In this document: piece after piece, positions 6,353 through 52,117 of the stretch
How positions within the stretch are numbered: the stretch's first letter is position 1
Layout: each line of letters opens with the position of its first letter
Source of the DNA: Cristatella mucedo
Taxonomy: Eukaryota > Bryozoa > Phylactolaemata > Cristatellidae
Assembly: GCA_009760855.2 (NCBI GenBank)
Contig: WPIO01000032.1
Coordinates: 436,501-500,500 of the forward strand
Length of the DNA stretch: 64,000 nucleotides
Direction of reading: 5' to 3'
Translations under genes and position numbers: made by a program
Notes under the pieces: generated by a model
Database searches by the model: none
The model's input: only the letters and a program-made list of their open reading frames with translations
What the model was told of the DNA's origin: nothing

Positions 6353-6407
6353 CGCCAATTTTTTGTAAACAATATTGCAATACTCAATTGCATCTGATGC
6401 TAGTGAC

Positions 6408-6612
6408 AGGGCGGGGTAGGGCTGGGTAGGGCAGGGTAGGGCGAGGTAGGGCGGGGCAGGACAAGGAATGAGGCAGGGCAGGGCAGGGCAGGGCAGGGCA
6501 GGGCAGGGCAGGGCAGGGCAGGGCAGGGCAGGGCAGGGCAGGGCAGGGCAGGGCAGGGCAGTACAGGGCAGAGAAGGGCAGGGCAGGGCAGGACAAGGGA
6601 TCGGGCAGGGGA
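6408..6612. repeat. GGGCA / GGGTAGGGC minisatellite, expanded, unit 1
   Basis: A 5-base GGGCA repeat runs about 22 times between 6475 and 6590, flanked by irregular GGGGTAGGGC repeats. Runs of three or four G at close spacing on the plus strand could form G-quadruplexes. It lies about 1 kb upstream of the gene. The long Gly-Arg-Ala or Pro-Ala-Leu frames over it are not genes. Confidence 0.9.
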
Positions 6613-6619
6613 ACAGTAT

Positions 6620-7430
6620 CTCAAGACTGCTAGTCTTTTACTGCGTTATTCCCGAAGGCTAATTCCCTAAGAGGTGTTATTGACAGGATACCCTTGCAGC
6701 TTGACAGACACACACACTGATTCTCTAATCGGTGTTTCAGTTTCGTGGTCGTAATCGTCAGCTCCTCATTAAGCCGCTCTCTTCGATAACTGCTTGTCGC
6801 ATAAAAGCTACATTCAGATTTACACTTCCGCAGCTAGTGATCGTGGTCGACCAATCACTAAGTTTAAGGTCTGCCTACCCTGATAGAATTCCAAAAGTCG
6901 TGATTGACCGATGGACGATCAAAAAACAAGCAATTTGGGTAGCTGGCAACTAGGAAATGTATTCAAGACTCGAATCCACTCATAAATGGGTGCTGTAAAG
7001 CTATTCGGACTGTACTCCCATCAGCCGTCACGGCTTAGTCAAGTAGTCCGAGATCAGTCGCACGCCCACATTCACCACTGCAAGCGGATGACGTAACCGA
7101 ATACAAAGTCGAGGGACATCTAGTCTTGCTAATACCAATCGAGGAATTTGTGACATGGAGCAGGAGATTAATTTGGGTTGCCTGTTTGACTAATTTATGC
7201 GGAGCTGTTTGCAGTTCAGCAGGTATAGTTTTTGTGTAACCTAGTTGCATCATGGACGCAACATAGCGGCACCTGATAAAATCGCCGGAGAGGGGCGTCT
7301 CACAATCGCTTGTATTAAAACATTCAGGGTAACCTGCCAACTCGTTGCATCGGAATTTTGTCTACGGAGCAATGCATTCGGATGTGGCTGCCACTGTTGG
7401 TGCTAGATAGGAGCGCATTAAGCTTAATCA
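6620..7430. other. Unit-conserved upstream segment, no gene assigned
   Basis: The segment between minisatellite and promoter is present in every unit (about 19066-19873, 31618-32421 and 43318-44133). A 73-codon frame at 6732-6953 (also 19175-19396, 31724-31945, 43429-43650) stays open in all units. It has no recognisable domain, its few differences between units change amino acids, and no exon signals or Kozak-like start stand out. I treat it as noncoding. Confidence 0.4.
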
Positions 7431-7472
7431 TGAAACTGGCATTTTGCCCTAAGCTTCCTTTGGAAACATACA

Positions 7473-7571
7473 GTTGGGCGTGGTTCATGCATATTTATCC
7501 ACTGCCTCCGGCTAACGCCTGGCAGTAAGGCTTGGCTGCTGTAATTAAGGATCGCGTTCTCCGTATTTATA
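7473..7571 (+). promoter_or_regulatory. Promoter of unit 1 repeat-protein gene, TATA at 7564-7571
   Basis: Three blocks are shared with the diverged paralog at 58288-58388: 'gttgggcgtggttcatgca' (a GGGCGTGG CACCC/KLF-like box), the palindromic 'ggctaacgcctggc' region, and 'gtaattaagg' (TAATTAA, homeodomain-like) 22 bases ahead of a TATTTATA TATA box. The TATA box lies 83 bases before the ATG. A start site near 7595 would leave a 5' UTR of about 50 bases. A 'gacgtcag' half-CRE-like motif precedes the ATG in both. Binding-factor names are inference from motif resemblance. Confidence 0.8.
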
Positions 7572-7646
7572 CCCGTCAAAGCTCACTGAACCGGCACAAG
7601 ACAGCTCTGAGCAGCTCTGGCAAGTTTCGGTGCTGAGACGTCAGTC

Positions 7647-8238
7647 ATGAAGATAGCCGTGGTCGTACTCGCTCTATGCGTTCTTTCGGTTCAAGGTGAG
7701 TGCTCGGCGCTGAGTCTTGTAGGCAGCTGCCCAGTCACTCAGTCATGTCTTACCATCGTTCTCAAAAATGCCACGTCCCGCTGTACTCAAAGGACGGTGA
7801 GAAGGAGCGTTCTAAAAGCGCATTGCAACCGAGTGCTATATTGCAAGGACTAAATCGTGACATTTACTTGTTGCAGCAGGTGGATGGGGAGGAAAAGAAA
7901 GCAACAACAACAACAACAACAACAATAACAACGCTGGCGGAAATAACAACAACAATAATAATAACAACAACGCTCGGGGTCACCACGAAAGGACCGTCAT
8001 CAAGAAGGTTCCAGTGCCCTACACGGTGGTTGAGAAAGTTCCACAGCCTTATGAGGTCATCAAGGAGGTGAAGGTTCCCGTGGAAGTGATCAAGGAGGTC
8101 AAGGTACCAGTGGAGGTCATCAAGGAGGTGAAAGTGCCCTATCCAGTGGTTGAGAAAGTGCCAGTTCCCTATACAGTGGTGGAGAAAGTCCCTGTTCCGG
8201 TGAAAGTTCACCGCGAGTACGAGCCTGAAGGATGGTAA
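7647..8238 (+). CDS. Secreted Asn-rich Val-Pro repeat protein, unit 1, two exons
   Basis: Exon 1 is 7647-7695, ending CAAG|gtgagt in phase 1. The 181-base intron ends ttgcag at 7876, and exon 2 is 7877-8238, giving 136 residues. The first 17 residues (MKIAVVVLALCVLSVQ plus Ala) are a clear signal peptide with a V-x-A cleavage site. Then follow GGWGGKES, ten Asn (26-35), AGG, ten Asn (39-48), a basic linker ARGHHERTVIKK, six 10-residue repeats (65-124; for example YEVIKEVKVP), and a VKVHREYEPEGW tail. Pro every tenth residue and alternating Val with charged residues suggest short beta segments. There are no Cys in the mature part. It is likely an extracellular matrix, cuticle, shell, silk or adhesive type protein by composition only. 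An acceptor three bases downstream (ttgcagcag) would remove one Ala. Confidence 0.85.
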
Positions 8239-8287
8239 ATGTTGCGGATAAGCTATTCGCAATGGATAGGCATTATAATTTTAGGTG

Positions 8288-8293
8288 AATAAA
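8288..8293 (+). terminator. AATAAA polyadenylation signal, unit 1
   Basis: A canonical AATAAA lies 50 bases after the stop codon of the repeat-protein gene, with a GT-rich 'gtacatgtacctgtaaatgtg' stretch just after it. It implies a 3' UTR of roughly 70-80 bases. Confidence 0.75.
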
Positions 8294-8299
8294 TTATGT

Positions 8300-9800
8300 A
8301 CATGTACCTGTAAATGTGCATCTGTATCGGATTATGCTTATTAGAGTTCAAAGACTTGCTTAGTTTGATGGTCTAAAAGCTATGCTAGCAACGTGTTTCC
8401 AAAATAAGGAACCCTTACCACATTTCTCAACAATATATTCCTTAGTAACGGCCAATGTGGTTTGCTGGTAATTAGCGAATTCAACTTGATTAACAGAAAA
8501 AAGAAAGTCAGATTTGGTAGTTTTTTCTTGACGGAATGGTGACTTGGATGGGCGGACAGAAAGTCACCCAAGCCTTACGTAAGAATATCGCTGGTTCCGA
8601 CAAGCTATGTCTAAGTGATGAAGCTTAATTATTTTAGAGCGAGTACAAAAATCAGTAAAAGCACTACCGGATAAATCAATTTCTTTCATAAGTTTGCTAG
8701 AAGGAAAACCATTCGATAGGCCAATGATGTACGCTAATACCTGAAAATATTTCGAGGCGTGTCTTTACTTTAATTGCATATTTTAGGCAGCATATGTGAA
8801 GGTTTATGTAGAAACGCTGATCGGAAGAGTCCTTTCGCAAAAGGAACTGCCAAAAAGGCGTCGTACAGCCGATTTAAGCTGCGCTAAAGTCGTTCGAGAA
8901 AATGGGCAACACACATACATTTTCCACAGAACTACATGTTCTGCGCCCAGATTTAAATAATGACGATTATTTAGGGTAGGTACGAGATAAAGCTTAAAAG
9001 AAGATTGAGCTAAGCTCGTTTAGTGAACTATAGCTACTAGTTGCGACCGAAATTTCTATCCGAACTTTCTCTTAGTCAGGGCTCAGTCTTCTGATGAGGC
9101 AAAGAGTGCTGACTTGCTCGAAGTGAGCTCACGCACAGCCATATACATATTTTGTTTTCCACGTCATTACGATCATGATAGCACTACTACGCATAGCGTT
9201 CAAGAATGTGCTTAAAGGGCAACCAAATAATTTTAACTCATTGGGGTTATGTACAACCTCAAGCGATATATGGCAATTGACTGAGATGGCAGAAAAAAGC
9301 AATCAGTAATCCCCATTCAGATCCCTCGAAAATAAGTAAAGTGGCTGAGAAAAGCTCCGACTTTGCTTGCGTGTAATAGCACAATGTTTGTAAAGTCCAC
9401 CCAGAGTTTTTAGCCCATTGAGGATGTTCGATTTCGGATAATGTCTCGGGTAATGTAATGTAATGCAATAAGCAAAATAAGCCGCACATAAACCACACAC
9501 CTGCTGTGCAAAGCTCCGATTTAAAATGCATTAAACAGGCCACGTTTTTTAAGTGCACCTCTTCCTGGAAAAAGAGTTTGAAGACACCTATTGAGTTGCA
9601 CGTAATTCGCCTTCATTGCATCTGGTCGTCAGTTTCCCGTTTGGAAACGTGTGATATCAATCTCCACTCTGTCCACCTCTTTGAAAACGGTCCGATGAAT
9701 TTGAATAACGATAGGGGTTGGCAATCAACGGTCTATTGAAAGGCATGGTGCCATTTAAGGAATGACATGATTTAAATAGATATAAATACATATATACATA
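8300..9800. other. Intergenic part of the unit, no gene recognised
   Basis: This stretch is conserved between units (about 20743-22240, 33293-34800 and 45003-46500) only because they are recent duplicates. The diverged paralog shares nothing here. Open frames of up to 99 codons on the minus strand around 9259-9558 change reading frame between units through small indels, which argues against coding. Confidence 0.5.
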
Positions 9801-9802
9801 TG

Positions 9803-9808
<6 letters not shown>

Positions 9809-9839
<31 letters not shown>
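9809..9839. repeat. (TA)n microsatellite, unit 1
   Basis: A TA-repeat tract of about 30 bases with imperfect ATA/CATA flanks. Its length and interruptions vary between units. Confidence 0.9.
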
Positions 9840-9843
<4 letters not shown>

Positions 9844-10010
9844 CGGAAACAAGTAGGCCATTTCATTGGAATATATAAATTACGATAAATAATAAATTAA
9901 CCCCAAATACAGGTAATTTCATCAATATTCAAGCCCATCAACACTTGAATAAATCCGAAATGATAGTACTGCCAGCTTACGAACGTCAGGGAATCGTCAA
10001 CGCAACGAAT

Positions 10011-12350
10011 GTAATGTAATGTATCTCCGTCTGTAACTCCACAAAGCCATAAAGACTACATGGGTGTTAGGCAGGAGAGTTTTGTACAGCTCGCTCATGG
10101 TCTCAGCGGCTTTCGGTACACACTCGGTAGCCAACAGACTTCGTCTCACCAAACAAAGAGAAAGTGGGAAGCATAGCAGAGTCAGGAGAGCAGTTGAGGT
10201 AGTGAGTAGCATGGAAGAAGCAGCTCTGGACCGCTGAAATGGATGAGTCATAGTCGGCAGCCGGAGGGTAACTGTCGTTGCCTAAGAATTGTAGAAGCGG
10301 GTTCCACAGTCTAGGACCTGCTGAACTAAAGCTGCTGTCGCCAACGGTCTTTAAGCGGAGCAATGGAACAGCTAATTTATTGTCCACACAGGACCCGAGG
10401 GCACGAAAATGCTGAAACTGGTGCAGCAGTTCAGCTAGGTACGAATGAGCCAAGCCGTCGCGGGCTTCCTTCTGGGTCAGCATAAGAACTTTGCTGTGCA
10501 TCCGTTGATCAACCGGCATCCATCCTAGCTCTTTTAGCAAAGGAGACACGTGCTCAAACCTCTGGGGCTTGAAACCTAGCCTTACAGCTATATTCATAGT
10601 CAGCTGCAGTGGGCTAGTTGCATTCTTTGGTAGCCCAGCCCAAAGGGAATTACAATAATCAAGCCGACACAGAACTAAGGAGCTAGTTAAATTTTTGCAA
10701 GCCACCGTGGAAGGCAGCTCCTAATCTTGGATAGGGATAGGACGTGATGGCTAGCTGTAAAAGCATTCTTTTGAATTAGGCTTAAAGTTGTGGCCGTTGT
10801 CGAAAAAGACACCTACATTTCGAGCACGTGGTGATGGTCGCATAATAGCATCACCTATTACAAGCTCAAGCCATTTAATCCAGCCACTCGCTTAGGGTGT
10901 CTTATGAGCAGCAATTTGATATTTATCGTCATTTAGCTTCAAGAAGTTTTCCGATATCCATGATCGAATGTCGGCAAGGCAAGCATTCATTTTCTAAGGT
11001 GGTGCAGCAGATTCCGATGGTTTGAATGACAGATACAGCTTAGTATCGTCAGCATAAAAGTGATATCATATTCCATGGGCCTTAATCACTTTTCCCAGAT
11101 GTTGAGTGTAAATGGAGAACAGCCAGAGACCAAGAACGGACCCTTGAGGGACTCCACAGGTGACCCGTCTCGTGTGCCAGACCTGACGCCCACACGACAC
11201 GGATTGAACACGAACAGACAAGTACGATATAAACCTCGCCAGCGCGTTGTCTGCCAGATCGATCGTTGTTCTCAATCGTTCGAGTAGAAAATGGTGATAA
11301 ATAGTGTCGATGGCAGCATACAGATCTAGCAGATCTAGCAGAGCTAGGGCAGTGACATTCCCGTCATCGTTGCCACGTAGAATGTCATTGTTAACATGGA
11401 GGAGAGCAGTTTCAGTGGAGTGCTGCCTCTTGAACCCTGGTTGAAATGTTTCCGAAATTTCATTCTTTTCAATATGTTCAACCAGCTGCTTAGCAACATT
11501 TTTTCAAGAATCCTTGCTAAGAAAGAAAGAAGGGAAACTGGGCTATAGTTTACAAGGACATCTGTATCAAATCAAGGCTTTTCAAGTATGGGTCTAACGA
11601 TAACCGATTTGAAGGACTTGGGGACGACCCATTTTCCCAAAGAAGCATTACAAATCTCGGTTATGAAAGGGCTAAGTTGTTCTGCCAGTGAAGACCACAG
11701 AGATGATGGTATAGGGTCTTCAGGAGACGAGCTCTTTTTGCTTTACCTTATTAAGGTAGTCACATTGCATGCAGAAACCTCGGAAAATCTTTTAAGGAAT
11801 GTCACAGGTTGTGATTCCGCAATTGCTCTAGTAGAAGAGGGCTTTATGGAGGCACGGATGTGCACAATTCTTTCATTAAGCAAGGCTGAAAACCATTTGG
11901 CTGAGCCCTTAATATCTGGGGAGTCAGACCTCTCAGCATTGGCCAATAGATCGTTTACTGTCTTATAAATCTGTTTAGGGTCCGTCTGGCAGGAATTCAG
12001 CTTTAGTGTAAAAAAGAAGTCCTGGCTTTTTACTATGCAAACACTTCGAGAAATGACATGGCTGTTTGCGTAATCTAGTATCTCTTGAATAACATGACGG
12101 GTCGTCAAATTAGACATTACATAGTACATGTAAATGAACCTGTTAGAAGCATTCATTTCCTTTAAAAGAGCGGTTGGCTGTACAGCGTTTATCCGGATGG
12201 CCAATCTCAACTGTTTGCCAAACTCGCCTTGCATTATGACGTTCGTGGAATGTGGATATTCTATGCTGTGAGCACATCTTTTTAAAACCTGATATGCTGG
12301 CTAGTTTAGCATTATCACTGCAGCCGGAAAGTTTAGAGCATTTTAATTTT
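10011..12350 (-). mobile_element. Line-B non-LTR retrotransposon, degenerate, unit 1
   Basis: The minus strand reads linker (12234-11743), RT motif [10 protein letters not shown] (about 11155-11129), RT motif C YADD (11056-11045), then a C-terminal region (10705-10103) with LDYCNSLWAGLPK and ELGWMPVDQR, ending in an ATTAC-type 3' tail at 10011. The organisation parallels Line-A and indicates the same broad L2/CR1-like group, but the sequence is a separate family. Stops and frameshifts split it. The endonuclease region was not recognised upstream of 12350. Confidence 0.8.
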
Positions 12351-12814
12351 CCGCAAGAAATAAGATGACATGTCGGACGACCACTGTCAATACAGCAAAG
12401 CTACGGGTCCAATCATTCTAGCAGCGACGTTTGCAGAGTAAGCGTGCACACGAAGGTGCTTGCTCAACATCAGTCGAGGTTCGTGATCCTGCTTGATCCG
12501 TACGTCGGTTCAACATGTTCTCGAAAAGAATTTTAGGCTACATTGTGACAGATTGTTTTGGACAGTATTATCAACCCATTAAAATTACACATACTTGAGC
12601 ATCTACAGTACCTTCTTTAAGCAATAAACACTGCTTTTGTAGCTGTCTAATAGCCTTTGTAGCTGCCAAAAACAGAATCGATTCAAGCCTCGAACCTTTA
12701 GAGAGCGGCTAATAACTTGCTGCCACTGAGTTTTAGCCCAAGGGTAAGGGGTACGCTTTGCAAAAACAGATCTATCGGGTATATATCGAGACAAAAACTA
12801 TGCTATAAAAATAC

Positions 12815-12935
12815 AGCCCCTTAACTCAGGCAGGTTTGAGTCCAGCAGTGGGCGATCCTTTATTGCACAATGCAAGGAAAAATAATATCGGTTAAGACTC
12901 TTTTGCCTCTACATAATCTAGGCTTTTGAACCATG
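12815..12935 (+). mobile_element. SINE-1 fragment, unit 1
   Basis: 'ggtttgagtccagcagtggg' followed by 'cgatcctttattgcac' and 'ggttaagactcttttgcctc' matches the body of SINE-1 copies at 63249-63350 and 54948-55045. The 'ggtttgagtcc' block is a decayed B box. The tRNA-like head upstream is hard to recognise. Confidence 0.55.
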
Positions 12936-13202
12936 TAACCTTAGGTGTAGCAGTAATACACACTCGCCTATGCCGACAGTAATGCAAGCAGTATCATTCA
13001 TGTATCCCCTATGACCGAACGTGCTCGATGCTGGAGGCATTTTGTAAGTGTCCTTTAAATAGAGTGCACTCACGTGTTCGGAAAAATAGATGTGCGTGGT
13101 TCCGATTTGAAGAGAATTTGCGTAGGACTAGAGTGGATTGAGGTATTCTCCAGTGCCACCCCAGTCGGTTGCAGTGCATTTCATTATACCCACAATGAGA
13201 TT

Positions 13203-15215
13203 AGCAATAATAATAATAATAATGATGCATTTGCAAAAATCCTTAGATAAATGAATCTCATTCTAGGCACTTTACAAGTGTTGCAAAGGAAGCGGTAAAG
13301 TATTACTTAGTGCTAACATTCACATAATATTAATAATAATAACTAGAGTAATAGTACATTTGTATAGCGCCCTCAGATAACTATATCTCTCTCTAGGCAC
13401 TTTACAGACCAAGCATTACAAAATGTTTGGTGGTAAAGTCTGCAAGCAGCAGGCAAAGTATAAGCAGGTACATGCATACGAAGGATGAATCACAAAGACC
13501 CACCAAATGCTGTAATACTCAGGTGCATTTTAAGCTTCTTTTTAAATGTCATGTCTGGGGACATTGTGACATGAGTCGGTAGTGAGTTCCAGGCTTTGGG
13601 AGCATAGGAACTAAATGCAGGGTCTCTAACGGCTTTGAGGTTCGCACGAGGTTTGGCTAATCGAATTGAGTCAGAACAGGACGTTGAAGGATTCTTCACC
13701 TAGTAAGGGAGTAGTTCTGATGGGTAGGCTGGAGCCAGAGAATAAAGAGACCTAAAAGTAAGAGACAGATCATTGAAGTCGATTTGCTGCTGGATTGGGA
13801 GCCACTGCAGGTCGGCGAGAAGTGGTGTGATATGGCATTTGCGACGCTTACGACAGATGAGCCTAGCTGCAGAGCTTTGCACCAGCTGGAAGCGCCTGAT
13901 TGCAAATGCCTGTAGACTAGCAAGCAGTGAGTTACAGAAGTCAAGACGCGATGTCACACATGCATTAACCAGTTTAGATGTGTCAGCCCTGTCTAAACAA
14001 GCCCGAATTTTCGCAACTTTATGTAGCTGAAAGTGGGCAGATTTGACTGTGGAACTGATGTGCTGTTGTTTTTGTCATCATTCAATTTAAGAATGTTTGC
14101 TGCCATTAATTTGCAAACGTCATCAATACATGCAGCAAGAGCACACTGAAAATTCGCCGTGCTCGAGGCATGGTAGGGATCAAAGCAATGGTCTGCAACT
14201 GAGTTTCGTCTGCATAGCAGTGGAAGCCTAGACTGTGCTTGACGATCGCATCGGCAAGAAGGAGAATGTAATCTATGAAAAGAAGCTGACCGAGCCCTGA
14301 GGTACTCCGTACTCAGTACTAAAGTGGTTACTCGGATGATCTTTTTCTGCTAACTTCAGTACTCCGGAGTCTCCCAATGAGATAGATCCTGAACCATTGC
14401 AGTGCAGTGCCAGTGATTCCGATGCGAGATTCAAGACCATGGAGGAGGACTTTTTGAACAATAGTGTCAAAGCTGCTGAAAGATCAAGCAGGACAAGCAG
14501 AGAGACTTTACCTTAAGTCTGCATTCATGAGAAGGTCGTTCGTTATGCACCCTAAGCGATGCTGACTCTGTGCTGCGATTAGCTCTAAATACAGACTGTA
14601 ACTAACTTTCTAGGTTTGCGGTCTCAATATAATGGTACAGTTGATCTGCCACAACGTTAATAATAATAATATTGCACTTGATAAAGCGCCCTCAGAGAAC
14701 CTAATCTCTTTCTAGGCGCTTGCGTTCCAGTGTCTTTGATAGGAACGGGAGAAGAGGGACTGTATGGAAGGTGCTCAAAGTATCTCAGTCTAGGATTGCT
14801 GTCTTAATTAGTTACCTGACTAAAGCCTCTTTGAAAGATGCTTGGACCAGGCCTTAGGCTAAGTACATATGTATAATGTTAGTTATGCACGGCAGCAGAA
14901 AATCCAAGCATCGTAGAAGTAGAACAGTAGAATAGGGTCTAGAGGGCTACTAGTCTTCTTGGATAGGGAGATACATTTTTGCATAAGGTAACTCGTGGCC
15001 TCATTGAACGTAGACATCGAGGTAGTGCACGTAATCGATGGACACGAGTCCTGTGTTAACGTAATTGAGGACAATGAGTACAAAAGGAATGCCACAACCC
15101 TAACGATGGACCCTCTGATCTTGTCTACTTCGCTGACAAAGAAGCTAGATAAGCGATCGGCTAGGTTTCCACAAGGATAACTTGGTAAAAACTAATCTGG
15201 GAGCAGTTAAGGAGA
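13203..15215 (-). mobile_element. Line-A, degenerate, with a second detached tail, unit 1
   Basis: Read on the minus strand, RT and C-terminal pieces (15095-14883, 14470-14273, 13957-13700, 13699-13490) end in the family's 3' hairpin and ATA tail at 13326-13410. A second, more decayed tail copy sits at 13203-13290. Motif B GVPQGSV is present, but motif C reads YADE instead of YADD, which removes one catalytic Asp. Relative to units 2-4, 129 bases are missing at 14063/14064. The match to unit 4 stops at about 15215, where the spacer begins. Confidence 0.8.
14659..14722 (-). mobile_element. 64-base Line-A tail insertion, unit 1
   Basis: The ATA tail and 3' hairpin of Line-A, and nothing more, interrupt the older Line-A. 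They are flanked by a 4-base direct repeat cgtt (14655-14658 and 14723-14726). Unit 4 lacks the insert at the same place (51497). Confidence 0.75.
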
Positions 15216-15370
15216 GCAAATTTATAATGGATGCGTTCAATTGAGTGCTGGTTGCCAGTTTGGCTGAAATTACTAGAAATGGATCGACTGCAGTACGCAT
15301 GCCCCTTCCTAATGTTCTTCTAGCTGACAAATTAGAAGGAAAGTGGTCTCTTTAAGGCTTATACACTGAG

Positions 15371-15372
<2 letters not shown>

Positions 15373-15452
<80 letters not shown>
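15373..15452. repeat. (AG)n microsatellite, spacer 1, left
   Basis: Eighty bases of pure AG directly before the plus-strand Line-B fragment. Confidence 0.95.
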
Positions 15453-16434
<982 letters not shown>

Positions 16435-16714
16435 CAAATAGTGTGGACGAAAAAGAAGCCAACTCTTTGATCACGAACCTTTTGGTCAACACAGTTACTT
16501 GCGACAGGATGGTGACAGCGCGATGTTTACTTGAAGCTTTACACATGCACTCCTTAAAGAGACATGTCCGCTTTTGTCATGTGACACTAATCTTTTGTTG
16601 GCATATGAAAGCACGGAACTAAATTCAAGCTCTAGTGCAACGAAGATGGCTTGCAAGACCCAGATATATTTATCAGCTAGGTTTCCTCTTTCCTTTTTCC
16701 TTTAAATAAAGGAA

Positions 16715-16885
16715 CACTAGCTGATTTAACAATCTCTTTTTTAAAGCGACAAAAGAGCCTTTACGGCTATCACCACCACTTGCAGTCGCAATCTAGGATT
16801 GCCAATCGCAGGATTCTAACACACAACCTTGGGACCAAGGTCACGAAAGCAACCACCTTACCTAATGCGCTATTCCTTTCTGCAA
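16715..16885 (-). mobile_element. SINE-1, spacer 1
   Basis: The minus strand reads a tRNA-like head ('gcattaggtaaggtggttgc', 'cgtgaccttggtcccaaggt', a B-box-like 'gtgttagaatcc'), then the SINE-1 body ('ggtgatagccgtaaaggctc') and the 'aaatcagctagtg' end. It is clearly the same family as the plus-strand copies at 54899 and 63190. Confidence 0.75.
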
Positions 16886-17369
16886 ACATCTGAATTCTCT
16901 CAATTTAAAATAAATTGTTCTCAAAGGTGATAGCTTTATTTCATCTGGCCCAATAATGGTGAAGCTGTTGTGAATTCCCTAGCAGTTGGTGGTATTTTTC
17001 CTTTGCCACTAGTTAAGACTTGCTCATTTGGAAGATCAAAACACCTAATCGATTAGTCTGGTGAATGCCTTTGTTGCCAACCTATTCTTGAAGCCGCAGG
17101 TTAAACATTTTCACTTGAAATTGAAAGCTCAATTCGGTCAGTCTGAACCTTAAAAAGAATCATTCAAGGATAATCAACTTATTACTTGCTGAAGAAACAT
17201 AATCAGTGGCTACTAGTTTGCTCTAATTGCTAAACTTAATGCTGATTGGAAATTTCTAGATTTATATAATCTCTCGGAAAAGTCAGAAGATTTAAGGCTG
17301 AAAAGTCAGTTTTATGGTTACATCCAATAGTTGCACTTGTCATTTATACCTTTTGGATAGACTGTGAAA
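16886..17369. other. Spacer 1 interior, nothing recognised
   Basis: AT-rich sequence with no gene or repeat family identified. The same stretch lies in spacers 2 and 3. Confidence 0.35.
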
Positions 17370-17570
17370 GCTGATAAGCTGAATGCCTATTCGGAGATAT
17401 TCTATCGCGGTTCAACTTAGGCTAAACCAAGATAAATTAAAATATTCCTCTCGAGACACGCAACACCTAGGCGGCAGTAGAAATCTCTCATCTATTTAAT
17501 GGTGCATAGCAAAGCCCCAAAAAAAGTGCTCATGATTTAGTATGTCCTTTTTGACGACTGCTTACGACTC
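17370..17570. repeat. Unclassified dispersed repeat, spacer 1
   Basis: Diverged but collinear with 61083-61290: both carry 'cgcaac...g(g)gc(a/g)g...tagaaa...tctcat', then 'ttttaatggtgc' or 'atttaatggtgc', and a 'gtgctc' block in the same order. No coding potential and no known family recognised. Confidence 0.5.
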
Positions 17571-17574
17571 TCAC

Positions 17575-17705: not shown

Positions 17706-17894
17706 TTTTCTATTTTTTCGATTAGTTAGAGTTGCTTATGGTACTCAACTGGGCCATTAGAGTCTAATGCAATAAATTACACAACACCATTGACAATAAT
17801 ACTATTCGTATTGCGCATTTAGATATATGAATTTTTTCGGTTAGTTAGGCTACTAATTAGGAGAACAACACTCGGCCAAGGGAACTTAAGCAAC

Positions 17895-40582: not shown

Positions 40583-40677
<95 letters not shown>

Positions 40678-40686: not shown

Positions 40687-40963
40687 CAAATAGTGTGGAC
40701 GAAAAAGAAGCCAACTCTTTGATCACGAACCTTTTGGTCAACACAGTTACTTGCGACAGGATGGTGACAGCGCGATGTTTACTTGAAGCTTTACACATGC
40801 ACTCCTTAAAGAGACATGTCCGCTTTTGTCATGTGACACTAATCTTTTGTTGGCATCTGAAAGCACGGAACTAAATTCAAGCTCTAGTGCAACGAAGATG
40901 GCTTGCAAGACCCAGATATATTTATCAGCTAGGTTTCCTCTTTCCTTTTTCCTTTAAATAAAG

Positions 40964-41130
40964 GAACACTAGCTGATTTAACAATCTTTTTTTTAAAGCG
41001 ACAAAAGAGCCTTTACGGCTATCACCACCACTTGCAGTCGCAATCTAGGATTGCCAATCGCAGGATTCTAACACACAACCTTGGGACCAAGGTCACGAAA
41101 GCAACCACCTTACCTAATGCGCTATTCCTT
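40964..41130 (-). mobile_element. SINE-1, spacer 3
   Basis: Copy of the spacer 1 element. Confidence 0.75.
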
Positions 41131-41620
41131 TCTGCAAACATCTGAATTCTCTCAATTTAAAATAAATTGTTCTCAAAGGTGATAGCTTTATTTCATCTGG
41201 CCCAATAATAGTGAAGCTGTTGTGAATTCCCTAGCAGTTGGTGGTATTTTTCCTTTGCCACTAGTTAAGACTTGCTCATTTGGAAGATCAAAACACCTAA
41301 TCGATTAGTCTGGTGAATGCCTTTGTTGCCAACCTATTCTTGAAGCCGCAGGTTAAACATTTTCACTTGAAATTGAAAGCTCAATTCGGTCAGTCTGAAC
41401 CTTAAAAAGAATCATTCAAGGATAATCAACTTATTACTTGCTGAAGAAACATAATCAGTGGCTACTAGTTTTGCTCTAATTGCTAAACTTAATGCTGATT
41501 GGAAATTTCTAGATTTATATAATCTCTCGGAAAAGTCAGAAGATTTAAGGCTGAAAAGTCAGTTTTATGGTTACATCCAATAGTTGCACTTGTCATTTAT
41601 ACCTTTTGGATAGACTGTGA

Positions 41621-41823
41621 AAGCTGATAAGCTGAATGCCTATTCGGAGATATTCTATCGCGGTTCAACTTAGGCTAAACCAAGATAAATTAAAATATTC
41701 CTCTCGAGACACGCAACACCTAGGCGGCAGTAGAAATCTCTCATCTATTTAATGGTGCATAGCAAAGCCCCAAAAAAAGTGCTCATGATTTAGTATGTCC
41801 TTTTTGACGACTGCTTACGACTC
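41621..41823. repeat. Unclassified dispersed repeat, spacer 3
   Basis: Copy of 17370-17570. Confidence 0.5.
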
Positions 41824-41825
41824 TC

Positions 41826-41957
41826 ACAGTTGAGAGCAGGACTTAGCTCATTGGTACGGTGTTTCCGCTTCACAATCAAGGCAATAAGCTCGAGCTCATT
41901 GGCTGACAATACTTTATTGCTTAATACAAGCGGTATTTATAGTGGCTAAGGTCCGTC
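41826..41957 (+). mobile_element. SINE-1-like, old copy, spacer 3
   Basis: Copy of 17575-17705. Confidence 0.45.
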
Positions 41958-42146
41958 ATTTTCTATTTTTTCGATTAGTTAGAGTTGCTTATGGTACTCA
42001 ACTGGGCCATTAGAGTCTAATGCAATAAATTACACAACACCATTGACAATAATACTATTCGTATTGCGCATTTAGATATATGAATTTTTTCGGTTAGTTA
42101 GGCTACTAATTAGGAGAACAACACTCGGCCAAGGGAACTTAAGCAA

Positions 42147-43113
42147 CTTCCGCCGTCTCTATTCTACCGTTCCTATCAAAGACGATGGAACGACTTATGG
42201 CATACCAGTTGAACTCTTATATTGAAACTTCAAACCTAGCGTGCGAGTTCCAGTTTGGTTTCAGATGCAATCAGTCCCCCCCCCCGAGTCATAAATGCCT
42301 CGGGTGAATGGTGACGTTTTCAGGAATTAAGAATTGAGTAGAATTTCTCTACTTGTCTTGGCTGTATCTTTCGGCAGCGTTCAAGGCGATTGATTGTAAA
42401 GTACTTTTCGATAGCCTCTCATCTCAGCTAGGAATCACTGGCACAGCACTCTAATGGTTCAGACCCTTTCTCAGTAAGAGACTACAGAGACTATTAATGT
42501 GAACTGGCAAAGATATCTTATTAATCACTAAAGTACGGTTTTGTTCAGAGCTCAGCACGCGGCCTGCTTATTTTCAGAGTTTTTAATCTTATTCTCACCG
42601 ATGTGATCACATGCCTAAGCTAGGCTTTCACTTCAATGCAGGTAATAAAGGCTTTCACTTCTATGCACATGACACTCAGCTGTACGTTTAATTTGATCCC
42701 TCGCTGCCTCCACCAAGTCAAATTCTCTCAACTCGACCTCCCCCGCTCATGTATTGCTGACATTCGCACATGGATGGCAACAAACTTTATTGAATTGAAC
42801 GACGGTTAAAGCAACTTACTAGCCATGGGCAAAACTCGTGCAAAAAATCCTTTGTAGACCGTGCATTTTGTTGGTAGACCCCAAAGCCCGGAACTCACTT
42901 CCGACTGATTTAATGGCATCACATGACTTGACAAAATTTAAAACGAAGCTAATCCTCATGTAGCTGTATTTTATATGTTAATAATTTGGGTGTCACCTTT
43001 AGCAATGTAATGCATTTTGATATTCCATGTGTTACCCACAAACCGTCTTGTCATGCTTATTTTACGGTTTATATGCAGTTTTGTGAAAGAGGTAAAGTTC
43101 TTTGAGAGCGCTA
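42147..43113 (+). mobile_element. Line-A RT fragment, spacer 3
   Basis: Copy of 17895-18860. Ends at the junction with unit 4. Confidence 0.72.
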
Positions 43114-43166
43114 TGCCAATTTTTCTGTAAACAATATCGCTATATTCAATTGCACCTGATGCTAGT

Positions 43167-43310
43167 GACAGGGCGGGGTAGGGCGGGGTAGGGCAGGGTA
43201 GGGCGGGGTAGGGCGGGGCAGGACAAGGAATGAGGCAGGGCAGGGCAGCGCAGTGCAGGGCGGGGAAGGGCAGGGCAGGGCAGGGCAGGACAAGGGATCG
43301 GGCAGGGGAA
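43167..43310. repeat. GGGCA / GGGTAGGGC minisatellite, unit 4
   Basis: Nearly the same as unit 2, with one GGGCA changed to GTGCA. Confidence 0.88.
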
Positions 43311-44175
43311 CAGTATCTCAAGACTGCTAGTCTTTTACTGCGTTATTCCCGAAGGCTAATTCCCTAAGAGGTGTTATTGACAGGATACCCTTGCAGCTTG
43401 ACAGACACACACACTGATTCTCTAATCGGTGTTTCAGTTTCGTGATCGTAATCGTCAGCTCCTCATTAAGCCGCTCTCTTCGATAACTGCTTGTCGCTTA
43501 AAAGCTAAATTCAGATTTACACTTCCGCAGCTAGTGATCGTGGTCGACCAATCACTAAGTTTAAGGTCTGCCTACCCTGATAGAATTCCAAAAGTCGTGA
43601 TTGACCGATGGACGATCAAAAAACAAGCAATTTGGGTAGCTGGCAACTAGGAAATGTATACAAGACTCGAATCCACTCATAAATGGGTGCTGTAAAGCTA
43701 TTCGGACTGTACTCCCATCAGCCGTCACGGCTTAGTCAAGTAGTCCGAGATCAGTCGCACGCCCACATTCACCACTGCAAGCGGATGACGTAACCGAATA
43801 CAAGGTCGAGGGACATCTAGTCTTGCTAATACCAATCGAGAAATTTGTGACATGGAGCAGGAGATTAATTTGGGTTGCCTGTTGACTAATTTATGCGGAG
43901 CTGTTTGCAGTTCAGCAGTTATAGTTTTTGTGTAACCTAGTTGCATCATGGACGCAGCATAGCGGCACCTGATATCATAAAAAATCGCCGGAGAGGGGCG
44001 TTTCACAATCGCTTGTATTAAAACATTCAGGGTAACCTGCCAACTCGTTGCATCGGAATTTCGTCTACGGAGCAATGCATTCGGATTTGGCTGCCACTGT
44101 TGGTGCTAGATAGGAGCGCATTAAGCTTAATCATGAAACTGGCATTTTGCCCTAAGCTTCCTTTGGAAACATACA

Positions 44176-44274
44176 GTTGGGCGTGGTTCATGCATATTTA
44201 TCCACTGCCTCCGGCTAACGCCTGGCAGTAAGGCTTGGCTGCTGTAATTAAGGATCGCGTTCTCCGTATTTATA
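44176..44274 (+). promoter_or_regulatory. Promoter, unit 4 gene, TATA at 44267-44274
   Basis: Intact, with the same blocks and spacing. A small insertion (atatcataaa region, about 43972-43983) lies well upstream of it. Confidence 0.8.
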
Positions 44275-44349
44275 CCCGTCAAAGCTCACTGAACCGGCAC
44301 AAGACAGCTCTGAGCAGCTCTGGCAAGTTTCGGTGCTGAGACGTCAGTC

Positions 44350-44941
44350 ATGAAGATAGCCGTGGTCGTACTCGCTCTATGCGTTCTTTCGGTTCAAGGT
44401 GAGTGCTCGGCGTTGAGTCTTGTAGGCAGCTGCCCAGTCACTCAGTCATGTCTTACCATCGTTCTCAAAAATGCCACGTCCCGCTGTACTCAAAGGACGG
44501 TGAGAAGGAGCGTTCTAAAAGCGCATTGCAACCGAGTGCTATATTGCAAGGACTAAATCGTGACATTTACTTGTTGCAGCAGGTGGATGGGGAGGAAAAG
44601 AAAGCAACAACAACAACAACAACAACAATAACAACGCTGGCGGAAATAACAACAACAATAATAATAACAACAACGCTCGGGGTCACCACGAAAGGACCGT
44701 CATCAAGAAGGTTCCAGTGCCCTACACGGTGGTTGAGAAAGTTCCACAGCCTTATGAGGTCATCAAGGAGGTGAAGGTTCCCGTGGAAGTGATCAAGGAG
44801 GTCAAGGTACCAGTGGAGGTCATCAAGGAGGTGAAAGTGCCCTATCCAGTGGTTGAGAAAGTGCCAGTTCCCTATACAGTGGTGGAGAAAGTCCCTGTTC
44901 CGGTGAAAGTTCACCGCGAGTACGAGCCTGAAGGATGGTAA
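44350..44941 (+). CDS. Secreted Asn-rich Val-Pro repeat protein, unit 4, two exons
   Basis: Exon 1 44350-44398, 181-base intron, exon 2 44580-44941. The predicted protein is identical to those of units 1 and 2. Confidence 0.85.
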
Positions 44942-44990
44942 ATGTTGCGGATAAGCTATTCGCAATGGATAGGCATTATAATTTTAGGTG

Positions 44991-44996
44991 AATAAA
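44991..44996 (+). terminator. AATAAA polyadenylation signal, unit 4
   Basis: Same position as in units 1 and 2. Confidence 0.75.
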
Positions 44997-46509
44997 TTAT
45001 GTACATGTACCTGTAAATGTGCATCTGTATCGGATTATGCTTATTAGAGTTCAAAGACTTGCTTAGTTTGATGGTCTAAAAGCTATGCTAGCAACGTGTT
45101 TCCAAAATAAGGAACCCTTACCACATTTCTCAACAATATATTCCTTAGTAACGGCCAATGTGGTTTGCTGGTAATTAGCGAATTTAACTTGATTAACAGA
45201 AAAAAAGAAAGTCAGATTTGGTAGTTTTTTTCTTGACGGAATGGTGACTTGGATGGGCGGACAGAAAGTCACCCAAGCCTTACGTAAGAATATCGCTGGT
45301 TCCGACAAGCTATGTCTAAGTGATGAAGCTTAATTATTTTAGAGCGAGTACAAAAAATCAGTAAAAGCACTACCGGATAAATCAATTTCTTTCATAAGTT
45401 TGCTAGAAGGAAAACCATTCGATAGGCCAATGATGTACGCTAATACCTGAAAATATTTCGAGGCGTGTCTTTACTTTAATTGCATATTTTAGGCAGCATA
45501 TGTGAAGGTTTATGTAGAAACGCTGATCGGAAGAGTCCTTTCGCAAAAGGAACTGCCAAAAAGGCGTCGTACAGCCGATTTAAGCTGTGCTAAAGTCGTT
45601 CGAGAAAATGGGCAACACACATACATTTTCCACAGAACTACATGTTCTGCGCCCAGATTTAAATAATGACGATTATTTAGGGTAGGTACGAGATAAAGCT
45701 TAAAAGAAGATTGAGCTAAGCTCGTTTAGTGAACTATAGCTACTAGTTGCGACCGAAATTTCTATCCGAACTTTCTCTTAGTCAGGGCTCAGTCTTCTGA
45801 TGAGGCAAAGAGTGCTGACTTGCTCGAAGTGAGCTCACGCACAGCCATATACATATTTTGTTTTCCACGTCATTACGATCATGATAGCACTACTACGCAT
45901 AGCGTTCAAGAATGTGCTTAAAGGGCAACCAAATAATTTTAACTCATTGGGGTTATGTACAACCTCAAGCGATATATGGCAATTGACTGAGATGGCAGAA
46001 AAAAGCAATCAGTAATCCCCATTCAGATCCCTCGAAAATAAGTAAAGTGGCTGAGAAAAGCTCCGACTTTGCTTGCGTGTAATAGCACAATGTTTGTAAA
46101 GTCCACCCAGAGTTTTAGCCCATTGAGGATGTTCGATTTCGGATAATGTCTCGGGTAATGTAATGTAATGCAATAAGCAAAATAAGCCGCACATAAACCA
46201 CACACCTGCTGTGCAAAGCTCCGATTTAAAATGCATTAAACAGGCCACGTTTTTTAAGTGCACCTCTTCCTGGAAAAAGAGTTTGAAGACACCTATTGAG
46301 TTGCACGTAATTCGCCTTCATTGCATCTGGTCGTCAGTTTCCCGTTTGGAAACGTGTGATATCAATCTCCACTCTGTCCACCTCTTTGAAAACGGTCCGA
46401 TGAATTTGAATAACGATAGGGGTTGGCAATCAACGGTCTATTGAAAGGCATGGTGCCATTTAAGGAATGACATGATTTAAATAGATATAAATACATATAT
46501 ACATATATG

Positions 46510-46511
<2 letters not shown>

Positions 46512-46546
<35 letters not shown>
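46512..46546. repeat. (TA)n microsatellite, unit 4
   Basis: TA tract preceded by 'catatatgta'. Confidence 0.9.
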
Positions 46547-46550
<4 letters not shown>

Positions 46551-46717
46551 CGGAAACAAGTAGGCCATTTCATTGGAATATATAAATTACGATAAATAAT
46601 AAATTAACCCCAAATACAGGTAATTTCATCAATATTCAAGCCCATCAACACTTGAATAAATCCGAAATGATAGTACTGCCAGCTTACGAACGTCAGGGAA
46701 TCGTCAACGCAACGAAT

Positions 46718-49060
46718 GTAATGTAATGTATCTCCGTCTGTAACTCCACAAAGCCATAAAGACTACATGGGTGTTAGGCAGGAGAGTTTTGTACAGCTCG
46801 CTCATGGTCTCAGCGGCTTTCGGTACACACTCGGCAGCCAACAGACTTCGTCTCACCAAACAAAGAGAAAGTGGGAAGCATAGCAGAGTCAGGAGAGCAG
46901 TTGAGGTAGTGAGTAGCATGGAAGAAGCAGCTCTGGACCGCTGAAATGGATGAGTCATAGTCGGCAGCCGGAGGGTAACTGTCGTTGCCTAAGAATTGTA
47001 GAAGCGGGTTCCACAGTCTAGGACCTGCTGAACTAAAGCTGCTGTCGCCAACGGTCTTTAAGCGGAGCAATGGAACAGCTAATTTATTGTCCACACAGGA
47101 CCCGAGGGCACGAAAATGCTGAAACTGGTGCAGCAGTTCAGCTAGGTACGAATGAGCCAAGCCGTCGCGGGCTTCCTTCTGGGTCAGCATAAGAACTTTG
47201 CTGTGCATCCGTTGATCAACCGGCATCCATCCTAGCTCTTTTAGCAAAGGAGACACGTGCTCAAACCTCTGGGGCTTGAAACCTAGCCTTACAGCTATAT
47301 TCATAGTCAGCTGCAGTGGGCTAGTTGCATTCTTTGGTAGCCCAGCCCAAAGGGAATTACAATAATCAAGCCGACACAGAACTAAGGAGCTAGTTAAATT
47401 TTTGCAAGCCACCGTGGAAGGCAGCTCCTAATCTTGGATAGGGATAGGACGTGATGGCTAGCTGTAAAAGCATTCTTTTGAATTAGGCTTAAAGTTGTGG
47501 CCGTTGTCGAAAAAAAGACACCTACATTTCGAGCACGTGGTGATGGTCGCATAATAGCATCACCTATTACAAGCTCAAGCCATTTAATCCAGCCACTCGC
47601 TTAGGGTGTCTTATGAGCAGCAATTTGATATTTATCGTCATTTAGCTTCAAGAAGTTTTCCGATATCCATGATCGAATGTCGGCAAGGCAAGCATTCAGT
47701 TTCTAAGGTGGTGCAGCAGATTCCGATGGTTTGAATGACAGATACAGCTTAGTATCGTCAGCATAAAAGTGATATCATATTCCATGGGCCTTAATCACTT
47801 TTCCCAGATGTTGAGTGTAAATGGAGAACAGCCAGAGACCAAGAACGGACCCTTGAGGGACTCCACAGGTGACCCGTCTCGTGTGCCAGACCTGACGCCC
47901 ACACGACACGGATTGAACACGAACAGACAAGTACGATATAAACTCGCCAGCGCGTTGTCTGCCAGATCGATCGTTGTTCTCAATCGTTCGAGTAGAAAAT
48001 GGTGATAAATAGTGTCGATGGCAGCATACAGATCTAGCAGATCTAGCAGAGCTAGGGCAGTGACATTCCCGTCATCGTTGCCACGTAGAATGTCATTGTT
48101 AACATGGAGGAGAGCAGTTTCAGTGGAGTGCTGCCTCTTGAACCCTGGTTGAAATGTTTCCGAAATTTCATTCTTTTCAATATGTTCAACCAGCTGCTTA
48201 GCAACATTTTTTCAAGAATCCTTGCTAAGAAAGAAAGAAGGGAAACTGGGCTATAGTTTACAAGGACATCTGTATCAAATCAAGGCTTTTCAAGTATGGG
48301 TCTAACGATAACCGATTTGAAGGACTTGGGGACGACCCATTTTCCCAAAGAAGCATTACAAATCTCGGTTATGAAAGGGCTAAGTTGTTCTGCCAGTGAA
48401 GACCACAGAGATGATGGTATAGGGTCTTCAGGAGACGAGCTCTTTTTGCTTTACCTTATTAAGGTAGTCACATTGCATGCAGAAACCTCGGAAAAAATCT
48501 TTTAAGGAATGTCACAGGTTGTGATTCCGCAATTGCTCTAGTAGAAGAGGGCTTTATGGAGGCACGGATGTGCACAATTCTTTCATTAAGCAAGGCTGAA
48601 AACCATTTGGCTGAGCCCTTAATATCTGGGGAGTCAGACCTCTCAGCATTGGCCAATAGATCGTTTACTGTCTTATAAATCTGTTTAGGGTCCGTCTGGC
48701 AGGAATTCAGCTTTAGTGTAAAAAAGAAGTCCTGGCTTTTTACTATGCAAACACTTCGAGAAATGACATGGCTGTTTGCGTAATCTAGTATCTCTTGAAT
48801 AACATGACGGGTCGTCAAATTAGACATTACATAGTACATGTAAATGAACCTGTTAGAAGCATTCATTTCCTTTAAAAGAGCGGTTGGCTGTACAGCGTTT
48901 ATCCGGATGGCCAATCTCAACTGTTTGCCAAACTCGCCTTGCATTATGACGTTCGTGGAATGTGGATATTCTATGCTGTGAGCACATCTTTTTAAAACCT
49001 GATATGCTGGCTAGTTTAGCATTATCACTGCAGCCGGAAAGTTTAGAGCATTTTAATTTT
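46718..49060 (-). mobile_element. Line-B, degenerate, unit 4
   Basis: Copy of the unit 1 element with the C-terminal region open over 200 codons (47412-46810). A missing C near 47943 and added A bases near 48495 shift upstream frames. Confidence 0.8.
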
Positions 49061-49524
49061 CCGCAAGAAATAAGATGACATGTCGGACGACCACTGTCAA
49101 TACAGCAAAGCTACGGGTCCAATCATTCTAGCAGCGACGTTTGCAGAGTAAGCGTGCACACGAAGGTGCTTGCTCAACATCAGTCGAGGTTCGTGATCCT
49201 GCTTGATCCGTACGTCGGTTCAACATGTTCTCGAAAAGAATTTTAGGCTACATTGTGACAGATTGTTTTGGACAGTATTATCAACCCATTAAAATTACAC
49301 ATACTTGAGCATCTACAGTACCTTCTTTAAGCAATAAACACTGCTTTTGTAGCTGTCTAATAGCCTTTGTAGCTGCCAAAAACAGAATCGATTCAAGCCT
49401 CGAACCTTTAGAGAGCGGCTAATAACTTGCTGCCACTGAGTTTTAGCCCAAGGGTAAGGGGTACGCTTTGCAAAAACAGATCTATCGGGTATATATCGAG
49501 ACAAAAACTATGCTATAAAAATAC

Positions 49525-49645
49525 AGCCCCTTAACTCAGGCAGGTTTGAGTCCAGCAGTGGGCGATCCTTTATTGCACAATGCAAGGAAAAATAATATCG
49601 GTTAAGACTCTTTTGCCTCTACATAATCTAGGCTTTTGAACCATG
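49525..49645 (+). mobile_element. SINE-1 fragment, unit 4
   Basis: Same remnant as 12815-12935. Confidence 0.55.
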
Positions 49646-49914
49646 TAACCTTAGGTGTAGCAGTAATACACACTCGCCTATGCCGACAGTAATGCAAGCA
49701 GTATCATTCATGTATCCCCTATGACCGAACGTGCTCGATGCTGGAGGCATTTTGTAAGTGTCCTTTAAATAGAGTGCACTCACGTGTTCGGAAAAATAGA
49801 TGTGCGTGGTTCCGATTTGAAGAGAATTTGCGTAGGACTAGAGTGGATTGAGGTATTCTCCAGTGCAACCCCAGTCGGTTGCAGTGCATTTCATTATACC
49901 CACAATGAGATTAG

Positions 49915-52117
49915 CAATAATAATAATAATAATGATGCATTTGCAAAAATCCTTAGATAAATGAATCTCATTCTAGGCACTTTACAAGTGTTGCAAAGGA
50001 AGCGGTAAAGTATTACTTAGTGCTAACATTCACATAATATTAATAATAATAACTAGAGTAATAGTACATTTGTATAGCGCCCTCAGATAACTATATCTCT
50101 CTCTAGGCACTTTACAGACCAAGCATTACAAAATGTTTGGTGGTAAAGTCTGCAAGCAGCAGGCAAAGTATAAGCAGGTACATGCATACGAAGGATGAAT
50201 CACAAAGACCCACCAAATGCTGTAATACTCAGGTGCATTTTAAGCTTCTTTTTAAATGTCATGTCTGGGGACATTGTGACATGAGTCGGTAGTGAGTTCC
50301 AGGCTTTGGGAGCATAGGAACTAAATGCAGGGTCTCTAACGGCTTTGAGGTTCGCACGAGGTATGGCTAATCGAATTGAGTCAGAACAGGACGTTGAAGG
50401 ATTCTTCACCTAGTGGGGGAGTAGTTCTGATGGGTTGGCTGGAGCCAGAGAATAAAGAGACCTAAAAGTAAGAGACAGATCATTGAAGTCGATTTGCTGC
50501 TGGATTGGGAGCCACTGCAGGTCGGCGAGAAGTGGTGTGATATGGCATTTGCGACGCTTACGACAGATGAGCCTAGCTGCAGAGCTTTGCACCAGCTGGA
50601 AGCGCCTGATTGCAAATCCTGATAGACTAGCAAGCAGTAAGTTACAGAAGTCAAGATGCGATGTCACACATGCATTAACCAATTTAGATGTGTCAGCCCT
50701 GTCTTAACAAGCCCGAATTTTCGCAACTTTATGTAGCTGAAAGTGGGCAGATTTGACTGTGGAACTGATGTGCTCGTCTAACGGAAGGTCACTTCGGAAT
50801 ACGCAACCTATATTAAATGCAGATTCAGCAGGAGATATTCTGGCAGAGCCGATTTTAGGCTTTCTAATTTATGAATACTATTTGGTTTTTCTATAAATAC
50901 TAAGTTGTTTTTGTCATCATTCAATTTAAGAATGTTTGCTGCCATCAATTTGCAAACGTCATCAATACATGCAGCAAGAGCACACTGAAAATTCGCCGTG
51001 CTCGAGGCATGGTAGGGATCAAAGCAATGGTCTGCAACTGAGTTTCGTCTGCATAGCAGTGGAAGCCTAGACTGTGCTTGACGATCGCATCGGCAAGAGG
51101 GAGAATGTAATCTATGGAAAGAAGCTGACCGAGCACAGAGCCCTGAGGTACTCCGTACTCAGTACTTAAGTGGTTACTCGGATGATCTTTGTCTGCTAAC
51201 TTCAGTACTCCGGAGTCTCCCAATGAGATAGATCCTGAACCATTGCAGTGCAGTGCCAGTGATTCCGATGCGAGATTCAAGACCACGGAGGACTTTGTGA
51301 ACAATAGTGTCAAAGCTGCTGAAAGATCAAGCAGGACAAGCAGAGAGACTTTACCTTAAGTCTGCATTCATGAGAAGGTCGTTCGTTATGCACCCTAAGC
51401 GATGCTGACTCTGTGCTGCGATTAGCTCTAAATACAGACTGTAACTCACTTTCTAGGTTTGTGGTCTCAATATAAGGGGGTTCAGTTGATCTGCCACAAC
51501 TCGTTTCAGTGTCTTTGATAGGAACGGGAGAAGAGAGACTGTATGGAAGGTGCTCAAAGTCTCTCGGTCTAGGATTGCTGTCTTAATTAGTGACCTGACC
51601 AAAGCCTCTTTGAAAGATGCTTGGACCAGGCCTTAGGCTAAGTACATATGTATAATGTTAATTATGCACGGCAGCAGCAAATCCAAGCATCGTAGAAGTA
51701 GAACAGTAGAATGGGGTCTAGAGGACTACTAGTCTTCCTGGATAGGGAGATACATTTTTGCATAAGGTAACTCGTGGCCTCATTGAACGTAGACATCGAG
51801 GTAGTGCACGTAATCGATGGACACGAGTCCTGTGTTAACGTAATTGAGGACAATGAGTACAAAAGGAATGCCACAACCCTAACGATGGACCCTCTGATCT
51901 TGTCTACTTCGCTGACAAAGAAGCTAGATAAACGATCGGCTTGGTTTTCACACAGATTTATTGGTAAGAAGCTAATCCCGGAGCAGTTAAGAAGACATTT
52001 ACATGTAGATATAAGCATTTTTGAATTGTGCATATGTGATGCAACAATATTTTTCTAGAAGGTAGATTATGTCTTCACCACGGTCGGCTGGTATCATCTA
52101 CAATAGTACCTACCTGC
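49915..52117 (-). mobile_element. Line-A, 3' half, unit 4 and beyond
   Basis: Detached tail at 49915-50002, own tail from 50036. RT motif B and motif C are in one frame (51313-50945: GVPQGSVLG, later YADE), and a linker segment runs at 52033-51662. Unlike in units 1-3 the element does not stop at 51995 but runs on to 52117, is interrupted by a nested insertion, and resumes at 52764. It lacks the 64-base tail insertion. Confidence 0.82.

Follow-up and report, generated by a model that had tools for sequence, protein, structure and literature searches.

A young four-unit gene array within a larger cluster of small, probably secreted PEVK-type protein genes in the bryozoan Cristatella mucedo

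Gene structure and predicted protein

The stretch of DNA analysed here, referred to as the window, comprises 64,000 nucleotides (nt) of the bryozoan Cristatella mucedo (contig WPIO01000032.1, hereafter C255; C255:436501-500500), from a genome assembly of 572 Mb in 688 contigs. It carries four near-identical units, each containing a copy of a small gene, followed by a diverged fifth copy (Table 1). The array gene consists of two exons, a 49-nt exon 1 and a 362-nt exon 2 (363 nt in unit 3), separated by an intron of 181 nt. All four units share the motif TATTTATA, located 83 nt upstream of the ATG, together with the two exons and an AATAAA behind them. This bears out the original prediction of a promoter and a poly(A) signal in every unit; its claim of a whole gene in each holds only in part, as the copy in unit 3 is frameshifted as assembled. 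Unit 4 is partial but contains an intact gene. The fifth copy that it had also described is present, but a single extra A breaks its frame as assembled. In the window, three gene copies out of five (those of units 1, 2 and 4) are intact and encode the same protein.

The coding length of unit 3 is 1 modulo 3, owing to a single extra A in its tract of Asn codons. Whether in copy 3 or in copy 5, the additional base is either real or a base error, and a run of 50 G residues in unit 3 (see below) counsels caution. The array copies also carry a CAGCAG acceptor pair, so that in-frame proteins of 136 and 135 amino acids are both possible.

The predicted 136-residue protein begins with a signal-like stretch, followed by two blocks of poly-Asn and then by a PEVK-type tail; the signal peptide was judged by eye and the splice sites were read from the sequence. 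If cut after Ala, the mature part would comprise 119 residues, with an isoelectric point of 8.8, 20 Asn and no Cys. The tail is 77 residues long, is composed of ten-residue repeats and consists of Pro, Glu, Val and Lys to 80.6%. Fold prediction from a shallow, two-sequence input gave a mean pLDDT (predicted local distance difference test) of 56 and a pTM (predicted template modelling score) of 0.11, with no confident fold. In the tail, nonsynonymous divergence (dN) was 0.003 and synonymous divergence (dS) 0.06, with dN/dS ratios of 0.055 and 0.08. The signal-like start, lack of Cys, low complexity, PEVK-like tail, low dN/dS and lack of a confidently predicted fold together make a structural role outside the cell the most likely one for the product.

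The four-unit array

The repeated sequence sets in at 6346, 18854, 31408 and 43107, in agreement with the earlier description of four near-identical units lying head to tail. Long blocks shared among the units are 98.6–99.4% identical. In a four-way alignment of the array core, 17 of 5,994 gap-free columns vary, which excludes chance similarity, and in the central 6 kb the units differ pairwise by 0.13–0.18%, supporting the proposal that a gene for a small, probably secreted protein has recently been amplified in tandem. Over whole units, satellite included, the distances are 0.4–1.0%, with 19–38 insertion or deletion (indel) events per pair.

Private substitutions number 31, 7, 13 and 47 sites in units 1 to 4, whose lengths are unequal. 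In unit 1, counted from 6700 onwards so as to leave out the satellite, 8 of 15 private sites lie in the left 0.8 kb; in unit 4, the right 1.6 kb contains 43 of 46. The final 1.1 kb of unit 4 is 95–96% identical to unit 1, and the match ends at 51995. This clustering of private sites at the outer edges of the array fits unequal exchange among the units, and does not fit an assembler that repeated a single one. As far as sequence can show, the four-unit array is young and real.

At window positions 31464-31513, unit 3 has a 50-base G run where the other units carry a GGGCA-type satellite; this run is possibly a sequencing or assembly artefact. Reverse-transcriptase fragments (Pfam RVT_1) were also seen on the minus strand, at 2006-2746 in the left flank and at 11066-11503 inside unit 1, and similar open reading frames (ORFs) occur at corresponding positions in the other units.

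Table 1. Units, gene copies and associated features of the window (positions counted from its first base)
Feature	Position	Strand	Description	Basis or remark
Unit 1	6353..18860	+	full, 12.5 kb	self-alignment of window
Unit 2	18861..31414	+	full, 12.55 kb	self-alignment of window
Unit 3	31415..43113	+	full, 11.7 kb, deletion relative to units 1 and 2	self-alignment of window
Unit 4	43114..51995	+	partial, 8.9 kb, ~71% of unit; right 1.6 kb more diverged than remainder	self-alignment
GGGCA-type satellite, unit 1	6407..6592		left end of unit	
GGGCA-type satellite counterparts, units 2, 3 and 4	18915-19053, 31464-31584, 43169-43307
TATTTATA of copy 1	7564..7571	+	83 nt before ATG	equal distance in 12 of 14 family copies
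Copy 1, exon 1	7647..7695	+	signal-like peptide	splice sites read from sequence
Copy 1, exon 2	7877..8238	+	poly-Asn blocks and PEVK-like tail, intact	second possible in-frame acceptor lies 3 nt downstream
Copy 2	20090..20681 (exons 20090-20138, 20320-20681)	+	intact	protein identical to copy 1
Copy 3	32638..33230 (exons 32638-32686, 32868-33230)	+	extra A in Asn tract	frame lost as assembled
Copy 4	44350..44941 (exons 44350-44398, 44580-44941)	+	intact	protein identical to copy 1
Fifth copy	58464..59163 (exons 58464-58512, 58696-59163)	+	diverged, subfamily B, extra A in Asn tract	frame lost as assembled

Extent of the cluster and of the family

The array represents the youngest portion of a larger cluster that had been missed in the original prediction: 14 copies with both exons lie on the plus strand over 223 kb, from C255:387149 to 610545, and relatives occur on two other contigs, C58 and C133. 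Eleven of these 14 copies are intact; besides the two frameshifted copies of the window, a third, at 561k, carries a 31-bp duplication. Further relatives on C255 are two minus-strand copies at 617k and 626k, both degraded in look, and a divergent copy at 420k. Some of the neighbouring stretches are older duplications (matches were kept at 88% or more over 600 bases, and some are dispersed repeats). A protein search gave 44 matches on the three contigs, partly several per gene; this figure is a lower bound, as are the gene counts. In one subfamily of C58 and C133, a Gly/Tyr-rich block precedes the Asn tract in all eight members fetched.

Two long ORFs (471 and 248 amino acids) on the minus strand at C255:646000-650000 consist largely of VPVEVIKEVK-type ten-residue repeats, and probably represent, to judge from this sequence, a longer relative of the PEVK-type family. 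On the minus strand of another contig, at C653:6794400-6796400, a 330-residue ORF contains many poly-Asn blocks and no PEVK-like tail. This locus (C653:6795k) was dropped as a family relative, since it has only the Asn-codon tract in common with the family and not the tail.

Divergence of coding and non-coding sequence

Comparison of the array with seven neighbouring copies of the cluster revealed non-coding divergences of 0.286 in the core promoter, 0.305 in the intron and 0.42–0.48 in the 3' flank, against coding divergences of 0.023 in exon 1, 0.016 in the tail and 0.041 at tail third positions. Among the seven neighbours themselves the corresponding values are 0.308 for the core promoter, 0.254 for the intron and 0.27–0.45 for the 3' flank, against 0.043 for exon 1 and 0.017 for the tail; these include one recent pair (571k/610k) with identical intron and tail, and another (561k/594k) with identical core promoter and an intron divergence of 0.071. 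Subfamily B differs from the other copies at 0.21–0.22 of tail third positions, showing that synonymous change is possible.

Phylogenetic trees of eight of the 14 copies, based on 316 coding and 430 non-coding alignment columns, respectively, reject each other in the approximately unbiased (AU) test, with p values of 0.0007 and 1.4e-5. In coding sequence, all informative sites join the copies at 546k and 571k (5/5 and 4/4 in two quartets), whereas in non-coding sequence 546k joins 534k (18 and 20 sites, against 7 and 6 for 571k). In one of these quartets the intron taken alone also joins 546k with 534k (9 sites against 2).

To judge from these alignments, the coding exons of the C255 copies are homogenised between copies and their introns and flanks much less so, a pattern that the original prediction had likewise not reported. 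Homogenised exons amid drifted introns and flanks are more than recent duplication alone would leave.

The relatives on C58 give a second instance. Four C58 genes agree completely over their final 216 coding bases (six of six pairs); when 243 bases are compared, three of the pairs still match in full and the other three show 3 differences each. Similarity in the adjacent intron is at the level of chance, with 47–66% difference where ten shuffled controls averaged 56%, and most 3' flanks are likewise at chance. Five pairs differ by 48–60% in the 3' flank at 61–250; the sixth (53k/65k) differs there by 32% and has a single difference in the first 60 bases of the flank. A further C58 gene, at 907k, is nearest in coding sequence to C133:38k and 51k (6/216 differ), and nearest in its 3' flank to C133:9k (3/60 and 37/157 differ). 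Between most members of the Gly/Tyr subfamily of C58 and C133, 6–56 of 216 coding bases differ. On this comparison, coding-restricted similarity is sharper in the C58 cluster than in that of C255.

Database searches and comparison with known systems

Pfam searches found no family above cut-off, and no chorion domain, in two family proteins of the window and five proteins from related or similar loci. An ORF of the fifth copy matched New_glue below cut-off (E 1.5e-4; 21.9 bits, cut-off 31), and this was rejected, the matched residues 25-71 being Thr-rich and out of the gene frame. Alveolin/articulin VPV-repeat proteins were also considered and set aside; Pfam gave no such match. A PDB sequence search with the array protein gave five matches up to E 1, the best at 0.014 and none meaningful; with the long repeat relative there were none up to E 0.1. 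The window contains no tRNA, and no Rfam family at gathering score. Text searches of the literature found the repeat strings in titin PEVK and pork-peptide contexts, and the protein family was not recognised in literature searched for the topics of shell, mantle, asparagine-rich proteins, PEVK and conversion.

The closest parallel in gene organisation, and one drawn by the original prediction, is that with chorion genes. Genes of the silkmoth chorion locus have a minor first exon near 50 nt and a major second exon of 300–500 nt, and they lie in tandem clusters with pseudogenes and gene conversion (PMC4639761). This supports the comparison: tandem two-exon genes for structural proteins (here a predicted one), the ~50-nt exon 1, pseudogenes and conversion (here inferred) recur in both. 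As expected of a chorion-like concerted cluster, the copies lie in tandem (14 on the plus strand over 223 kb), and homogenisation appears to go beyond copy age, given the contrast of 0.016 in coding sequence with 0.305 in introns, the conflict of trees and the C58 genes. The systems differ in that the protein here is of Asn/PEVK type and the C255 genes have one orientation and are not A/B pairs. A second parallel is provided by insect cuticular protein arrays, where conversion tracts are tied to nucleotide repeats in the coding region and sometimes cover part of the gene only (PMC2793513). Coding repeats and partial-gene homogenisation may likewise be linked here, although Pfam found no cuticle domain in the proteins.

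With regard to the protein, titin PEVK is described as 75% P, E, V and K (PMC9100103). It shares with the present tail this composition and KVPVPV-type strings, and possibly also disorder, insofar as a shallow prediction lacking a confident fold can indicate it. Homology is not claimed, as the gene described herein is a two-exon gene for 136 residues with a signal-like start, poly-Asn blocks and no Ig domains. Molluscan mantle and shell proteins (shematrins, KRMPs) are secreted, are built of low-complexity modular repeats and form families enlarged through duplication (PMC4897951), and a Gly/Asn-rich shell protein is reported from Lottia (PMC3374290). A signal peptide (by eye here) and low-complexity modular repeats are common to both, and in the present family all eight fetched members of one C58/C133 subfamily have an additional Gly/Tyr-rich block; the published descriptions, as far as they were available, contain no VPVEVIKEVK-type tail.

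Proposed origin of the cluster

We consider it probable that the array forms the most recent section of a big cluster of genes for small, probably secreted and disordered structural proteins, shaped by tandem duplication, unequal exchange and conversion of coding exons. In this model, repeated tandem duplication would enlarge the gene cluster. The four-unit array would be of recent origin and evened out by unequal exchange, leaving a near-identical core and more diverged outer edges. Gene conversion, largely confined to coding exons, would keep the protein of the older copies alike despite drifted promoters, introns and 3' flanks. The product would probably be extracellular and abundant, as part of a cuticle, shell, tube, egg coat or adhesive; there the PEVK-like tail could serve as a flexible spacer and the Asn blocks could aid association.

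The introns bear on this model, as a simple DNA copy carries the intron and a retrocopy has none; unrelated introns between identical exons would thus point to homogenisation after long divergence. The homogenising mechanism is of a known kind. A 1991 study, going by its title, reportedly dealt with localised conversion in an early chorion family, and a study of mosquito Hsp82 genes is said, again by title, to concern concerted evolution limited to ORFs. A broader reading is plausible, though we lean slightly against it: the genes could belong to a family of secreted proteins of PEVK type that has so far gone undescribed and comprises about thirty loci in at least three clusters. Conversion ending near the exon borders would hold its coding exons identical, even where introns and flanks are no longer alike. 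Such a family would constitute an extracellular elastomer system, possibly with its own in-frame repeats as recombination substrate.

It is improbable that the array is an assembly duplication, in which one or two real units were assembled repeatedly, for example two haplotypes in tandem. The whole-unit divergence of 0.4–1.0% lies within the range of heterozygosity and the G run in unit 3 hints at poor local base quality; against this, private substitutions occur in every unit (31, 7, 13 and 47), unit lengths and indels differ, the private sites of units 1 and 4 are concentrated at the outer edges, which are more diverged than the core, and more tandem copies, of lower identity, continue over 223 kb. 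Equally improbable is a neutral, repeat-driven expansion of little function, with satellite- or transposon-driven duplications and decaying copies. Although the satellite at the unit junctions, the frameshifts in three of the 14 plus-strand copies and the degraded look of the minus-strand copies at 617k and 626k agree with such an expansion, 11 of the 14 copies are intact, TATTTATA keeps a constant distance in 12 of them all, and the tail dN/dS is low (0.055 and 0.08).

A slightly better case, still an unlikely one, can be made for strong selection on synonymous sites, through codon usage or RNA function, holding the coding exons alike in place of conversion. Similarity does drop near the stop codon and at the exon borders. 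Change in the coding sequence is nevertheless tolerated, as shown by the tail third positions of subfamily B (0.21–0.22 against other copies) and by the 6–56 differences in 216 bases between most members of the Gly/Tyr subfamily; coding and non-coding trees are also in conflict.

Several observations weigh against the model of duplication, exchange and coding-exon conversion. Subfamily B and the array are not homogenised with each other (0.22 at tail third positions), and the Asn tract is less homogenised: taken over all of exon 2, the C58 genes differ at 8–29 of 348–396 positions, mostly in that tract. In one quartet the intron alone joins 546k with 571k, the coding grouping, by 6 sites to 2. 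Three of the 14 plus-strand copies have lost their frame, and conversion does not usually leave similarity that ends so near the stop codon. Selection acting on synonymous sites may play a part as well, and the fold prediction was built on two sequences.

If this model holds, what had appeared as a tandem duplication would make it possible to test how uniformity is maintained within sets of structural-protein genes in animals. The coding islands of 216–243 bp, identical or nearly so within DNA of chance similarity, would make the length and borders of natural conversion tracts measurable. Moreover, with Pro, Glu, Val and Lys making up four-fifths of its tail, this small and probably secreted protein is a candidate for a non-muscle elastomer.

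Mitochondrial and related sequences

The mitochondrial contig of the assembly (C688; 21,008 bp) contains a tandem repeat of 2.1 kb and inverted copies of 1.8 kb, all of them exact, together with one cox2. Its gene order, read by eye from ORFs, is rearranged, keeps a nad5-nad4-nad4L-cob-nad6-nad1 block and departs from the mollusc consensus; the orders described for Lottiidae retain less of this nad block (PMC7648102). COX1 and the gene order suggest a mollusc-type spiralian. A haemocyanin search of the genome gave no match, and none for its controls either. COX1-like stretches with stops also occur on two large contigs, at C166:4375626-4376390 and C83:3121-3735, and are probably nuclear copies of mitochondrial DNA.

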